From: Rothia dentocariosa ATCC 17931
GTDB taxonomy: Bacteria > Actinomycetota > Actinomycetes > Actinomycetales > Micrococcaceae
Assembly (NCBI RefSeq): GCF_000164695.2
Contig: NC_014643.1
Coordinates: forward strand, 2,294,001-2,358,000
Direction of reading: 5' to 3'
DNA length: 64,000 nt
Shown here: piece after piece, positions 3,834 through 55,412 of the stretch
How positions within the stretch are numbered: the stretch's first letter is position 1
How the letters are laid out: every line of letters starts with the position of its first letter
Notes under the pieces: generated by a model
Seen by the model: the letters and a program-made list of their open reading frames with translations, nothing else
Told to the model about the DNA's origin: nothing
The model's database searches: none
Program-made: the position numbers and the translations under genes

Positions 3834-4832
<999 letters not shown>

Positions 4833-4937: not shown

Positions 4938-7118
4938 TTACAGCATGCAGGATACGCAGCCCTCAACTTCGGTGCCTTCAAGAGCCATCTGACGCAGACG
5001 AATGTAGTAAATAGTCTTGATACCCTTACGCCATGCGTAAATCTGGGCACGGTTAATATCGCGAGTGGTCGCAGTATCCCGGAAGAAGAGAGTCAAAGAC
5101 AGACCTTGATCCACGTGCTGAGTTGCCACGGCATAGGTATCTATGATTTTCTCGTACCCAATTTCGTAGGAGTCTTGGAAGTATTCCAGGTTATCGTTCG
5201 TCATGAACGGTGCCGGGTAGTAGACTCGCCCCAGCTTGCCTTCCTTACGAATCTCAATCTTAGAAGCAATCGGGTGGATCGAAGAAGTCGAACCGTTGAT
5301 GTACGAGATAGATCCGGTGGGCGGAACGGCCTGCAAGTTCTGGTTGTACATGCCGTATTGGGCTACATCGGCGGCAAGCTGAATCCAGTCTTCGCGGGTC
5401 GGAATATGATGCTTAGCAAACAGCTCACGTACCCGTTCGGTCTGCGGTTCCCATTCCTTCTCAATGTACTTGGCGAAGAACTCACCGTTAGCGTACTTTG
5501 AACTCTCAAACCCTTCAAAGGTCACGCCGCGCTCCTTGGCGATCTCCATGGAAGCGCGAATAGCATGGTACGTCACCGTGTAGAAGTAAATATTGGTGAA
5601 GTCCAGACCTTCTTCGGAACCGTAGTAAACGTGCTCACGCGCCAGGTACCCGTGCAGGTTCATCTGCCCCAGACCGACCGCGTGGCTCATATCGTTACCG
5701 CGTTCGATAGACGGCACGGAACGAATATCGGATTGGTCGGAAACTGCGGTAAGCGAACGAATAGCGGTTTCAACGGTTTTCCCTAGGTCGTCACCGTCCA
5801 TGGTCATTGCGATGTTGAGAGACCCAAGGTTGCACGAAATATCTTTCCCAATTTCGGCGTAGCTCAAATCGTCGTGGTAAATCGACGGCTTTGAAACCTG
5901 CAGAATCTCCGAGCAAAGGTTAGACATGATGATCTTGCCTTCAATCGGGTTAGACCGGTTAACCGTATCCTCAAACATCACGTAGGGATACCCGGACTCG
6001 AACTGCACCTCAGCAATGGTCTGGAAGAACTCGCGCGCGTTGATCTTGGTCTTGCGAATCCGCGAGTCATCCACCATTTCGTAGTACTTCTCAGAAACGT
6101 TGATATCTGAGAAAGCTACTCCGTAGATACGTTCTACATCGTAGGGCGAGAACAGATACATATCTTCGTTACGCTTTGCCAGCTCGAAGGTAATATCAGG
6201 AATCACAACGCCCAAAGACAGGGTCTTAATGCGCACCTTCTCGTCTGCGTTTTCACGCTTAGTATCTAAGAAAGCATAAATATCGGGGTGATGCGCGTGC
6301 AGGTAAACCGCGCCTGCACCCTGACGAGCCCCCAACTGATTTGCATATGAGAATGCATCCTCAAGGAGCTTCATCACAGGGATAACACCGGATGATTGGT
6401 TCTCAATCTTCTTGATGGGAGCCCCAGACTCACGTAGGTTCGTGAGGGCGAACGCGACACCGCCTCCACGTTTTGAAAGCTGCAGGGCAGAGTTGATGGA
6501 ACGGCCAATCGACTCCATATTGTCCTCAATACGCAGCAGGAAGCAGGAAACGAGCTCACCGCGCTGCCTCTTACCAGCGTTCAGGAAGGTCGGGGTTGCG
6601 GGCTGAAAACGACCGGAAATGATCTCATCTACGATCTCTTCTGCAAGTTTTCCATTGCCTTCAGCAAGAAGCAGAGCCACCATGCATACACGATCCTCGA
6701 AACGCTCCAGGTAACGCTGACCGTCGAAGGTCTTGAGCGCGTAGGAAGTGTAGAACTTGAAGGCGCCTAGGAAGGTGGGAAAACGGAACTTGGCCGCATA
6801 GGCACGTTTGAAAAGAGACTTCACAAAGTCAAAACTGTACCGGTCGAAGAGTTCCGGCTCGTAGTACTGATTCTCAATCAGGTACTCGATTTTTTCTTCG
6901 AGATCGTGGAAGAAAACCGTGTTGTTATTAACATGCTGAAGAAAATACTGACGTGCGGCTTGACGGTCGGCGTCAAATTGGATCATGCCGTTTTCATCGT
7001 AGAGATTCAGCAAAGCGTTCAGCTCGTGGTAACTCATACCTTTGAATTTGTCAGGTACCGCTTTGGAGCTGTGTCCGGCACCGAGAGTCTCTAGCGCTGA
7101 AGGCAGTTTTGCGTCCAA
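4938..7118 (-). CDS. nrdE: Class Ib ribonucleotide reductase, alpha (catalytic) subunit
   Basis: Reduces ribonucleoside diphosphates to deoxy forms. Family marks: [15 protein letters not shown] at the N-terminus, the catalytic NLCSEILQ and CNLGSLN motifs, and the C-terminal redox tail ending EGCVSCML, reduced by NrdH. Start is uncertain. Reading is open to 7202, but that would overlap nrdI by over 100 bp. TTG 7118 has GGAAG 4 nt upstream, overlaps nrdI by 28 bp and gives 726 residues, near the usual 700-720. ATG 7037 gives 699 residues but its AAAGG is only 1 nt away. I prefer TTG with translational coupling; ATG 7037 is a real alternative. Confidence 0.95.
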
Positions 7119-7621
7119 AATTCTTCCAATCCTTTGTTTACTTTTTCGACATCTGAGGGGGTTCCCATAAGCTCGAACTTGAAGAGCAAGGGAACATCGC
7201 ATTTCTTCGCCACAATATCTGCTGCGATTCCGAAGAGAGATCCGAAGTTTGTATTTCCCGATCCGATAACACCGCGAAGCTGGCGACGGTTCTCTTCGTC
7301 ATTCAGGAATTTGACGACCTGCGGGGGAACATTGCCTGCCCCTTCTGGTTTCCCGTATGTGGGTACGCACAGCACATAGGGTTCGTGCATAACGGGAGTC
7401 TCATCCTTAGTTCGCAGAGGAAGGCGCACGTTTCGTGCCTGTAGTTTCTCAACGAACTTGTGTGTGTTGCCTGAAATTGAGGAGAAGTAGACAACGAGCG
7501 GCAAATCCTTACCCAACGAGCTTTGAGTCGCTCGGCCCTCAGCAGCATCACGTGCCTGAAGAATAATCTTCTGAATCTCAGCGTTCTCATGCGTAGGATT
7601 TTGTGCGAGGGGGGTGCTCAT
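7091..7621 (-). CDS. nrdI: NrdI flavodoxin-like protein for class Ib RNR
   Basis: 176 residues. Flavodoxin-like FMN protein that supplies oxidant for assembly of the NrdF manganese cofactor. The phosphate-binding loop [12 protein letters not shown] (about residues 45-56) and the [12 protein letters not shown] stretch (about residues 121-132) are hallmark NrdI motifs. An N-terminal extension of about 40 residues precedes the fold, longer than most NrdI proteins. The start is firm: AAGGAG sits 5 nt before ATG 7621. The 3' end overlaps the proposed nrdE start, and nrdH lies about 70 bp upstream. Confidence 0.95.
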
Positions 7622-7690
7622 ATTTCTCCTTACTCCACGATCAAATACCCACGGAAATTCTGTGGGTTGAGTCGTGCTTGACGCTGCCGC

Positions 7691-7918
7691 CTATGCTAAT
7701 GCAAGCGCGTTAATCTTGTCAGGCTGGAATCCTGACCAATGCTCTTCACCGGCGATGACGACCGGTGCCTGCATGTATCCGAGGGACTTAACCATCTCTA
7801 GCGCCCGGGAATCTTCCGTAATGTCTACTTTGTCGTAGTTGATGCCCTTGGCGTCTAGCGCCCGGTAGGTCATGTTGCACTGAACGCACTGCGGTTTGGT
7901 GTACACGGTCACTACCAT
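7691..7918 (-). CDS. nrdH: NrdH glutaredoxin-like electron donor
   Basis: 75 residues. Thioredoxin-fold redoxin that re-reduces NrdE, itself reduced by thioredoxin reductase. The active site is CVQC within VYTKPQCVQCNMTYRAL, and the C-terminal WSGFQPDKI stretch is characteristic of NrdH. The start is ATG 7918 with AAGGAG 7 nt upstream; the longer frame from 7942 adds MGLTRRKP and would place the ribosome site inside the coding region. First gene of the nrdHIE(F) set. Confidence 0.95.
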   Translation of the reverse strand: MVVTVYTKPQCVQCNMTYRALDAKGINYDKVDITEDSRALEMVKSLGYMQAPVVIAGEEHWSGFQPDKINALALA

Positions 7919-8072
7919 CGGTTTTCTCCTTGTCAGCCCCAAGGCGGAGCGTAATTGCGTGAATACTTTGTGTGCAAGGCAGAGGATTCTTGTGCTTGAT
8001 GAGACTTCCTTTAGCTCTAGAAGACTGGAAGCATTTCGTCATCGACCGCGCAAAGAATCGAGCCGGGTATTA

Positions 8073-8119
8073 ATACTACATGTTGTGTCTGAAAATTTCT
8101 CTGGCACAAGATGCTGTGG
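8073..8119 (-). promoter_or_regulatory. Probable NrdR box pair upstream of nrdHIEF
   Basis: Minus-strand 16-mer ACACAACATGTAGTAT (8088-8073) matches the known NrdR consensus ACACwATATwTwGTGT at 13 of 16 places. A weaker one, CCACAGCATCTTGTGC (8119-8104), matches at about 11. They lie exactly 31 bp apart, three helical turns, the spacing known for paired NrdR boxes. A -10-like TATTAAT overlaps the proximal box, so binding would block transcription. The pair is about 155 bp before nrdH. Confidence 0.6.
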
Positions 8120-8174
8120 TGAAGTGTGGATGTTTTGTTCGAGAAACCCACACGCGAGCACAAGGACATTCAGT

Positions 8175-8593
8175 TTATCCACACCTCAGGAGAGTGTAAT
8201 TCCGCTAATTATTGCGGACAATACAGAGTTATCCACATATCGGCTCTGTGAGCGGAACGCGCATCGCTCTTTTAAACTGAAAATCTGTTCTGTTTTTTCA
8301 GGGCGAACAGGTCTTTATGTGAGATTTCTGGCATTGTTTCCCTCTTGATTTTTAAGCTTTTATACCCATTCCTTGATTCTCTGCGGAACGAGACTGAAAA
8401 ACTCGACTGGATTCCACCTACATGCGTCGTGTTGGAAGGTTTTTATGGCTTTTGAGAGTATGGCAAAGATGTGATTAAGAAATTTTTGAAACATTCAGAT
8501 GATCGGCGTGTTGTTGGGTTTTTGTGAGAGAAATCGTCAAACCCATTAAAACCCACATCTCGTATGAGGTCGGTACAGTTCGCCTGTGGATAA
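8175..8593. promoter_or_regulatory. Three consensus DnaA boxes in the nrd control region
   Basis: TTATCCACA occurs exactly at 8175-8183 and 8229-8237, and its complement TGTGGATAA at 8585-8593. The whole stretch 7919-8717 (about 800 bp) has no credible gene. The perfect boxes, the NrdR pair nearby and AT-rich sequence between them suggest DnaA-linked control of dNTP synthesis, as known for E. coli nrdAB. dnaA and dnaN are absent, so an origin is not supported. Confidence 0.65.
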
Positions 8594-8717
8594 GCGTAAT
8601 GATCTACTGTCTCAATAGTTGATCTTCCCCTGCCAGCCCTCAAGATGAGGTCATCTCTTCCCCACACCACAGAGAACAGCCATACAGATGTACAACCTAA
8701 TACGTGCTAATACGTGT

Positions 8718-9821
8718 TTAGAGAAGTCCTCGCTCACGAAGCAGTCGGCTCAACGTATGCCCATCATTCGCCTCCATCCACAATGGAGAATTTGTCATTT
8801 TTTGCGCTCTCTGATCGCTCCAGACCCGCCCAGAGGCGAGAACGCTCTCCCCCACCGTGAGGTTACGAATCATAATAGCGGCGACGTTCTGCGGGTAGCG
8901 CACCGCAAATCCGTTGTATATATCCGGGTCACGCTGTCCGTCGTCGCCGATAAGAATCCACTGCATCTGGGGAAATTCTTGGGCAAGTCGTTTTAGAGAG
9001 TTCACTTTGTGTTGGGACCCCGACCTAAACCAGCGGTCAGGAGTTGGCCCCCAGTCTGTTAATAGGAAGGTTCCACGCGGGTAGCCATTGCGGGTCAGAA
9101 AGCGACGCAGTGTCGGTGTGATATTCCAAGCGCCAGTGGAAAGATACATAAAAGGTGCCTGAGGATGTGCTCGATGAATGCGGTCCATGAGCACCGCCAT
9201 GCCCGGGGTCGGAATGCGCGCGTGCTCATCCAGTACAAAGGAGTTCCACGCAGCGACAAGAGGACGCGGCAACATAGTCACCATAACGGTATCATCGACG
9301 TCTACGATAACCCCGATTTTCTGGGATTCCGGGACGATATAAACATTAGTTTCAACGGCGCGGGAACCCGGTACATACATGATGACCTTATGCATTCCGG
9401 CCGGTAAGTCTAGGTCAAGGCGCACATCCAGCACTCCACCACGGTCGGTTTGTACCTCAAACGTATGGCCCGCAATAAGAATAGTCACGTACACATCCGA
9501 CATGGCAACGGTGGTAAAAGCCCGCCACCCGCGCGTCGGGTTATCGGTATCTTCGGTGCCTTCCACCACGTGTAGGAGTTTTTCAAAGGCAGCCGTTTTA
9601 TAGAGGGCACGCCCAAGAATACGCACCCACCCGGATTCAGTATCTGTGGCTACCCGTCCATATCCTTCAGATGGCACCACAATAGGCTCACGCCCGTGAG
9701 CCACAGCTCGCTGTTCACGCCAACGATGCACGGCATCGCCCATACGATACCCTAGGTTAACGGCTTCACCGGCAACTTCGGTGACCACGCTGCGCAATTC
9801 TTGTGGGCCTAGATTCTCCAT
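8718..9821 (-). CDS. App1-type phosphatase family protein (DUF2183)
   Basis: 367 residues from ATG 9821. The C-terminal half is HAD-like: GVIVDVDDTV carries the nucleophile motif DxDxT, then YLSTG, and GDDGQRDPDIY completes the acidic active site, matching the App1/DUF2183 phosphatidate-phosphatase-like family. The N-terminal half (about 1-150) is a beta-rich domain seen in actinobacterial members. Cytosolic; no signal peptide. Start is uncertain: an upstream TTG at 9866 has GAGG about 7 nt before it and would add MKIGCFIARYGKLES, which looks unlike a conserved region, while ATG 9821 has only a poorly placed purine run. Substrate in bacteria is unknown. Confidence 0.82.
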   Translation of the reverse strand: MENLGPQELRSVVTEVAGEAVNLGYRMGDAVHRWREQRAVAHGREPIVVPSEGYGRVATDTESGWVRILGRALYKTAAFEKLLHVVEGTEDTDNPTRGWRAFTTVAMSDVYVTILIAGHTFEVQTDRGGVLDVRLDLDLPAGMHKVIMYVPGSRAVETNVYIVPESQKIGVIVDVDDTVMVTMLPRPLVAAWNSFVLDEHARIPTPGMAVLMDRIHRAHPQAPFMYLSTGAWNITPTLRRFLTRNGYPRGTFLLTDWGPTPDRWFRSGSQHKVNSLKRLAQEFPQMQWILIGDDGQRDPDIYNGFAVRYPQNVAAIMIRNLTVGESVLASGRVWSDQRAQKMTNSPLWMEANDGHTLSRLLRERGLL

Positions 9822-54737: not shown

Positions 54738-55412
54738 CTAATCGTGCGACGTAGCAGTATTGGTAGCAGGCTTGTTAAGTTTACGCGAATCCAGTACCTT
54801 ATCCACTAAACCGTATTCTTGAGCGGCAGCAGCAGTTAGAATATTATCGCGCTCGATCGAACGGTCAACTTCCTCATAGGTCTTGCCGGAGTGCAGAGCC
54901 AGGGTTTGTGCAGTCCACTCACGCATACGCATAACTTCGTTCGCGTGAATCTCAAGGTCAGATGCCTGTCCGCCTTGCTGTCCGCTTAGGGCGGGCTGGT
55001 GAATAAGCACGCGAGCATTCGGAAGAGCCAAACGCTTACCCGGGGTTCCAGCAGCCAAAAGCACTGCCGCAGCCGATGCAGCCTGACCCAAGCATACGGT
55101 CTGAATCTCGGGGCGAATAAACTGCATGGTGTCATAGATGGCGGTCATTGCCGTAAAAGAACCACCGGGAGAGTTGATGTACAGGGTAATATCGCGGTCG
55201 GGGTCTTGGGCCTCAAGCACGAGAAGCTGAGCCATAATATCATCTGCCGAAGCGTCATCAACCTGGGTACCCAAGAAAATAATGCGATCCTCAAATAGCT
55301 TGGCGTACGGATCTTGACGCTTATAACCGTAGGGGGTACGTTCCTCAAAGCTGGGGAGCACGTAACGGTTCGAGGGCATCTGCGGTGCAGAATCTTGAGG
55401 TAGGTAGTTCAT
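54738..55412 (-). CDS. clpP2: ATP-dependent Clp protease proteolytic subunit, second copy
   Basis: 224 residues. Serine protease subunit. Catalytic Ser in [11 protein letters not shown], His in VLIHQP, and Asp further on in [18 protein letters not shown]. The N-terminal 20 residues (from [10 protein letters not shown]) may be processed. It pairs with the product of 55430-56068 to form a mixed tetradecamer, as known in mycobacteria. Spaced 17 bp after clpP1, one operon. Confidence 0.96.

Follow-up and report, generated by a model that had tools for sequence, protein, structure and literature searches.

Conserved DnaA-type boxes upstream of an NrdR box pair at the class Ib nrdHIEF operon of Rothia suggest a tie between nucleotide supply and replication initiation

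Results

The nrdHIEF operon and its NrdR box pair

The window analysed here is a 64-kb stretch of Rothia dentocariosa ATCC 17931 DNA (positions 2294001-2358000 of the single contig of 2,506,025 bases), which carries a class Ib ribonucleotide reductase (RNR) operon on its minus strand. The first gene, nrdH (7691..7918), encodes a glutaredoxin-like product and was named from its sequence and position; its start at 7918 was picked for an AGGAGA directly upstream, the mechanical ORF start being 7942. It is followed by nrdI (7091..7621), an ORF named by its place in the nrdHIEF order and by its relatives, by nrdE, encoding the alpha subunit (4938..7202; TIGR04170, 1258.7 bits, cut-off 750), and by nrdF, encoding the beta subunit (3834..4811; TIGR04171, 485.9 bits, cut-off 355). 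The coordinates of nrdE are those of the mechanical ORF, in which the matched part begins at residue 58, and the true start probably lies further in. NrdE was the single match to PF02867 in the genome, corresponding to one reductase large subunit, and no class I/II RNR operon other than nrdHIEF was found. The dnaA gene is located at 956-958 kb, roughly 1.16 Mb from nrdHIEF if the contig is circular.

A gap of 799 bp separates the nrdH start (7918) from the end of the next ORF (8718). Within it, we confirmed two NrdR-like boxes on the minus strand, box 1 (CCACAGCATCTTGTGC, 8104..8119) and box 2 (ACACAACATGTAGTAT, 8073..8088), lying exactly 31 bp apart as the preliminary description had stated, i.e. 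with the spacing of about three helical turns typical of RNR promoters with two such boxes. The best-scoring pair at 30-33 bp was taken at each locus, and the spacing was 30-32 bp in all 33 Rothia loci and 32 bp in all 31 loci from other Micrococcaceae (see below). Box 2 ends in a -10-like TAGTAT (8073-8078), and the same is true in 64 of 64 loci. We infer that this hexamer is the -10 element of the core promoter, in which case NrdR would block the polymerase. NrdR boxes overlap the polymerase site in the species described in PMC12176259, and promoters of the NrdR regulon are described as having 15-16 bp between the two boxes and a known dependence on helical phase (PMC12051234). The nrdHIEF promoter resembles the NrdR regulon promoters of Streptomyces, E. 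coli and Listeria in having two NrdR boxes at similar spacing, but differs from them by additional conserved DnaA-type sites upstream.

The genome encodes a single ATP-cone protein, its one NrdR candidate. The beginning of its ORF is cysteine-rich and looks Zn-ribbon-like by eye, consistent with the Zn ribbon plus ATP-cone architecture of NrdR; TIGR00244 gave 78.4 bits on the ATP-cone fragment alone, which is below the cut-off of 124.65 set for the whole protein. A sigma-70 scan returned two promoter-like sites compared to 1.4 in shuffled sequences, neither of them at the NrdR boxes, and the terminator scan run alongside it found none. A riboswitch reading of 7600-8760 was dropped because an Rfam search of this interval gave zero matches up to E = 1.

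Exact DnaA boxes in the window and the genome

We confirmed that three exact copies of the DnaA box TTATCCACA lie in this one gene-free gap, two on the plus strand (8175..8183 and 8229..8237, at -64 and -118 from NrdR box 1) and one on the minus strand (8585..8593). They are the only exact copies in the 64-kb window, and none of 100 dinucleotide shuffles of the window contained at least three (mean 0.46). Both strands of the genome together hold 38 exact copies, compared to 7 copies of the reversed pattern. At the genome density, 0.012 copies are expected in 799 bp and the Poisson probability of at least three is 2.9e-7, a value for this single gap that is uncorrected for the number of gaps or for boxes being commoner between genes; the earlier claim that the 9-mer is rare by chance in so short a space was borne out. 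The 38 copies form 28 loci (the two sides of dnaA counted separately). A similar density was not found in many gaps: only the region upstream of sodA exceeds the nrd gap (4 exact boxes in 475 bp), and the remaining loci have 1 or 2 exact boxes each. For 15 of the 28 loci, nrd included, a match was found among 34 exact-box regions of R. aeria on the basis of neighbouring genes, not of box position within each region. Looser boxes (TTWTNCACA or one mismatch) were no more numerous in the window as a whole than by chance, so it is the exact 9-mer, with its clustering and conservation, that carries the signal.

An edge-to-edge distance of 45 bp separates the boxes at 8175 and 8229, and no word at 2-3 bp to either side of the three boxes matched better than 4/9. 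An E. coli-type double box with a 2-3 bp gap is thus absent from nrdHIEF, this rule being one from E. coli only. Closer to the NrdR pair, a degenerate proximal box (AAACCCACA, 8144..8152, plus strand) lies at -33 from NrdR box 1; the identical word is present in R. aeria, and many relatives carry CTATCCACA, TAATCCACA or TAGTCCACA at -34 to -40, near the same site. At 8136-8152, the minus strand reads TGTGGGTTT, one base, then TCGAACA, an arrangement kept in R. aeria. The TCGAAC part resembles half a LexA site; a second half was not seen beside the proximal box.

Conservation of the boxes within Rothia

Among 35 Rothia genomes, 33 have nrdI and 33 nrdH upstream regions were read; the two genomes with no NrdI match are 72% and 65% complete. 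A second nrdI-like gene was observed in 8 of the 35 genomes, and these second copies are excluded from the 33 loci. In the six of them that were read (L073-L078), about 1.9 kb of upstream DNA gave no match to nrdH, and the tested DnaA-like words were all absent within 600 bp.

Exact TTATCCACA was found in 23 of the 33 nrdH upstream regions and TTGTCCACA in 4 more (23 and 3, respectively, in a subset of 30 loci). The broader TTRTCCACA was present in 27 of 33 and absent in six (L042, L051, L053, L066, L071 and L072). In the 150 bp upstream of NrdR box 1, every one of the 33 loci had a TGTGGA core, compared to about 1.5 of 33 in shuffles, and 25 had at least two; the cores were on the same strand in 58 of 61 cases (58 to 3). 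Eight loci carried weaker sites (four with TTGTCCACA, four with the core only), and L042 and L071 were also without TTRTCCACA. The eight are mostly GC-richer, their upstream DNA having a GC content of 0.57-0.72 versus 0.48-0.61 in the other 25.

The window locus and its nearest loci share two exact boxes 54-55 bp apart. Relative to NrdR box 1, the pair is placed at -64/-118 in the window, at -72/-127 in R. aeria and at -74/-129 in R. mucilaginosa and three others. Compared to relatives with -74/-129 or -74/-119, the window (-64/-118) differs by about one helical turn. In the window genome and the nearest loci read by eye, the degenerate TGTGGGTTT lies at -33. A second arrangement, in 15 of the 33 loci, combines an exact box at -79 to -83 with CTATCCACA or TAATCCACA at -37 to -40. 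Overall, cores occurred at -64, -71 to -74, -79 to -84, -92, -96, -112 and -118 to -129, which indicates that the genus as a whole does not keep one shared register.

The expectation that the boxes at this RNR promoter would be retained in sister species held for two of the three: those at 8175 and 8229 are aligned with exact boxes in R. aeria and are likewise kept in R. mucilaginosa. It failed for the box at 8585: the 900 bp upstream in each of 29 other Rothia loci contained no exact equivalent, and this box is probably accessory or incidental.

Related sites and helical phase in other Micrococcaceae

Outside Rothia, 31 loci were hand-picked among the better matches listed; they cover 17 of the 31 other genera of the family. 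The 150 bp upstream of the NrdR pair contained a TGTGGA core in all 31 (2.2 loci in shuffles) and at least two in 30, with 95 cores in 31 x 155 bp compared to 13 in 34,248 bp of neighbouring DNA. The proximal core was found at -34 to -36 in 25 of the 31 loci and a distal core at -88 to -90 in 10 loci, at -100/-101 in 13 and at -110 in 1, the proximal and one distal position both being occupied in 24. Of 68 cores, counted over related loci whose state is mostly constant within genera, 49 fell on these peaks and none at -91 to -99; the other 19 lay elsewhere, so the phase is not uniform. Steps of this size, 10-11 bp, suggest that indels were tolerated mainly when they added or removed whole helical turns, which in turn points to a contact of the bound protein with the promoter complex.

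Same-strand TTRTCCACA was present in 8 of these 31 loci and exact TTATCCACA in 1. In other families of the order, TTRTCCACA within 500 bp was found in 5 of 19 loci at scattered positions (20 loci were taken, of which L176, having no nrdH or nrdI match, was dropped), and five Corynebacterium loci contained one lone core in total. The pattern therefore fades outside the family Micrococcaceae.

Identity of the bound protein

In Rothia, TTATCCACA is the commonest NNNTCCACA word beside dnaA (85 of 262 words, 30 loci), which marks it as the lineage's own DnaA box and places lineage-consensus DnaA boxes upstream of the RNR operon. It also leads the dnaA flanks of the other genera (50 of 244 NNNTCCACA words). 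The domain IV signature GGRDHTTV is intact in the DnaA of this genome, and the protein aligns with the solved B. subtilis chain 8btg.

One alternative is that the TGTGGA cores are bound by another regulator, probably a dimer, and that the Rothia sites only resemble DnaA boxes. An inverted pair, TCCACA-N2, 3 or 5-TGTGGA, would suit such a protein, and it was present in 22 of the 31 non-Rothia nrd regions and rare in dnaA flanks (7 pairs in 171 kb); it was absent from all 33 Rothia nrd regions. The proximal site in the other genera is also unlike dnaA-flank boxes at position 2, where A was found in 15 of 25 nrd sites versus 22 of 244 flank words. However, among the 26 Rothia cores at -64 to -96, all have T at position 1, 25 have T at position 2 and 23 are exactly TTATCCACA, the very word that dominates beside dnaA. 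Even in the other genera, positions 3 and 10 fit the dnaA-flank preference, with a purine at position 3 in 58 of 63 nrd cores, 182 of 244 flank words and 4 of 13 background words, and G at position 10 in 42 of 63, 162 of 244 and 4 of 13, the background comprising 13 words only. We consider a different regulator unlikely on this evidence. DnaA is likely the binder in Rothia, and we are less sure of it in the other genera, where the sites are degenerate, often palindromic and, from their sequence, could belong to another protein.

The boxes might instead merely titrate DnaA, as a datA-like locus or a simple sink, with no effect on nrdHIEF. Other exact-box clusters are indeed found upstream of sodA and at 939 kb, the latter between convergent ORF ends where a promoter is not expected. 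The nrd sites, however, have a distance and strand linked to the NrdR pair and are helically phased in most other genera examined, which speaks against a sink because a sink would not need such spacing, and we regard pure titration as improbable. The same promoter-tied spacing would argue against a datA/DARS-type locus, in which a cluster of boxes, accompanied by IHF or Fis sites, acts on DnaA instead of a promoter. That the boxes are functionless products of chance or mutational leftovers would agree with the isolated 8585 box and the chance-level loose boxes, but it is very hard to reconcile with cores in 64 of 64 loci versus 1.5 and 2.2 expected per group (related loci, not 64 independent cases) and is disfavoured for the boxes at 8175 and 8229, unlike that at 8585.

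Discussion

A model for dual control of nrdHIEF

Given the observed sites, their conservation and their spacing, we consider it fairly probable that nrdHIEF is driven by a class Ib RNR promoter under NrdR repression with an additional, phased DnaA input from upstream. The control region would extend over 8073-8237. NrdR, bound to its two boxes over the core promoter, would repress at high dATP, as expected from known NrdR action, and DnaA would bind upstream at the pair of exact boxes located some 110 and 165 bp ahead of the presumed transcription start, and probably more weakly at the degenerate proximal box beside the NrdR pair. Because helical phase is preserved in most of the other genera studied, a direct contact of the bound protein with the polymerase or NrdR is probable. 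Through its amount or nucleotide state, DnaA would then set how much reductase is made, in the manner of E. coli nrdAB; by analogy with that system, DnaA would usually occupy the exact boxes, whereas occupation of the weak proximal box would require high ATP-DnaA. We infer both the sign of this effect and any link to replication timing, and the layout suggests that the supply of DNA building blocks is tied to the start of DNA replication. The earlier proposal that dNTP supply is coupled to both NrdR and DnaA is in part supported by the conserved sites, less so beyond Rothia, where most sites, as judged from sequence, are not consensus DnaA boxes.

Comparison with known systems

DnaA control is established for E. 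coli nrdAB, which is activated by low DnaA-ATP or DnaA-ADP and repressed once DnaA-ATP is high (PMC8203912). DnaA and NrdR boxes lie upstream of this operon, and the effect depends on the level and nucleotide state of DnaA (PMC8203912; PMC12176259). Rothia nrdHIEF resembles this class Ia operon in being an RNR operon with upstream DnaA and NrdR boxes, but it is of class Ib, actinobacterial and the only class I/II RNR found in its genome. Its boxes are spaced by tens of bp versus 2-3 bp in nrdAB, the distance that E. coli DnaA is described as requiring (PMC11317965), and the spacing to the NrdR pair runs in helical-turn steps in most other genera examined, unlike in E. coli nrdAB.

The preliminary description regarded this link as known for nrdAB and was aware of none for a class Ib operon in this lineage. 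The first part stands, and there are precedents for RNR genes outside nrdAB. The RNR of B. subtilis is of class Ib. DnaA control has been proposed for the RNR genes of B. subtilis (Goranov 2005, as cited) and C. crescentus (PMC8203912), the former being, as here, Gram-positive proposed targets. In an E. coli DnaA ChIP-seq study, nrdA, nrdD and purH are among the 16 regions listed, whereas nrdHIEF is not (PMC11317965). The class III operon nrdDG is thus a DnaA-bound RNR operon other than nrdAB, differing from the present case by its anaerobic class and by two boxes 2 bp apart (PMC11317965). Among the open-licence papers listed, we saw none that describes DnaA sites at a class Ib operon of an actinobacterium. 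Since DnaA control of RNR genes is known for nrdAB and proposed elsewhere, we describe a new, conserved actinobacterial variant, while a DnaA link to RNR genes outside nrdAB is not wholly new.

If correct, the model of NrdR repression with DnaA input would add a second lineage, distant from E. coli, in which dNTP supply is matched to replication initiation, a connection detailed mainly for nrdAB. With DnaA-type and NrdR sites at constrained distances from each other on a class Ib operon, the conserved layout makes clear predictions for the removal of sites and for which insertions, of 5 bp versus 10 bp, would disrupt control or leave it intact. A wider set of DnaA targets in Actinobacteria is also suggested.

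WhiA-type repeats and further box loci

Upstream of the DnaA-like sites, 30 of the 31 non-Rothia loci (L079-L109) carry GACACGCC no further than 600 bp from nrdH, in most cases at 130-190 bp upstream of NrdR box 1. The repeats are oriented, with 39 on the nrd strand and 0 on the other, compared to 2 in 31 kb of neighbouring DNA. Within Rothia they were found in 10 of 33 loci, and in the upstream region of the window the only GACAC overlaps NrdR box 2. In Streptomyces venezuelae, GACAC is the motif of WhiA, a regulator that has been suggested to repress nrdR there (PMC3781837). The repeats are candidate WhiA sites by their sequence, a lead to follow. More tentatively, the Micrococcaceae nrdHIEF promoter could be a three-input integrator of WhiA-type GACAC repeats, phased DnaA sites and the NrdR pair, a possibility that we regard as less likely than not. 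The window species would then have retained the inputs from DnaA and NrdR, whereas its WhiA-type repeats would have disappeared. If this reading were true, division state, the replication initiator and the dNTP level would together set dNTP supply in bacteria whose class Ib enzyme may be their only aerobic reductase.

The sodA cluster (L020; contig 1017315-1017790, upstream of sodA at 1018025) contains four exact and several degenerate boxes in 475 bp and lies about 60 kb from dnaA; it is a candidate locus for DnaA titration or control. Among 30 Rothia sodA upstream regions of 1200 bp each (L237-L266), 17 had 4 to 6 exact boxes, 3 had 1-2 and 10 had none. Nine of the 35 Rothia genomes contain between 2 and 6 divergent pairs of the form TGTGGATAA-N25 to 29-TTATCCACA and the other 26 none; the opposite arrangement was observed once each in 3 of 35. 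The window genome has three divergent pairs, at 54833-54878, 611121-611164 and 683949-683993 (L004, L008 and L010), with glf and an FHA-like ORF (a weak match), a WXG100 gene and purB as neighbours. Those of relatives are L267-L284, and the six copies in one genome (G033) share an internal TTTGATAG. Finally, an origin-like cluster of exact and degenerate DnaA boxes (L015, 939279-939403) lies about 17 kb from dnaA between convergent ORF ends, one ORF being rhomboid-like (below the family cut-off), and its R. aeria counterpart (L120), about 16 kb from dnaA, also bears boxes.
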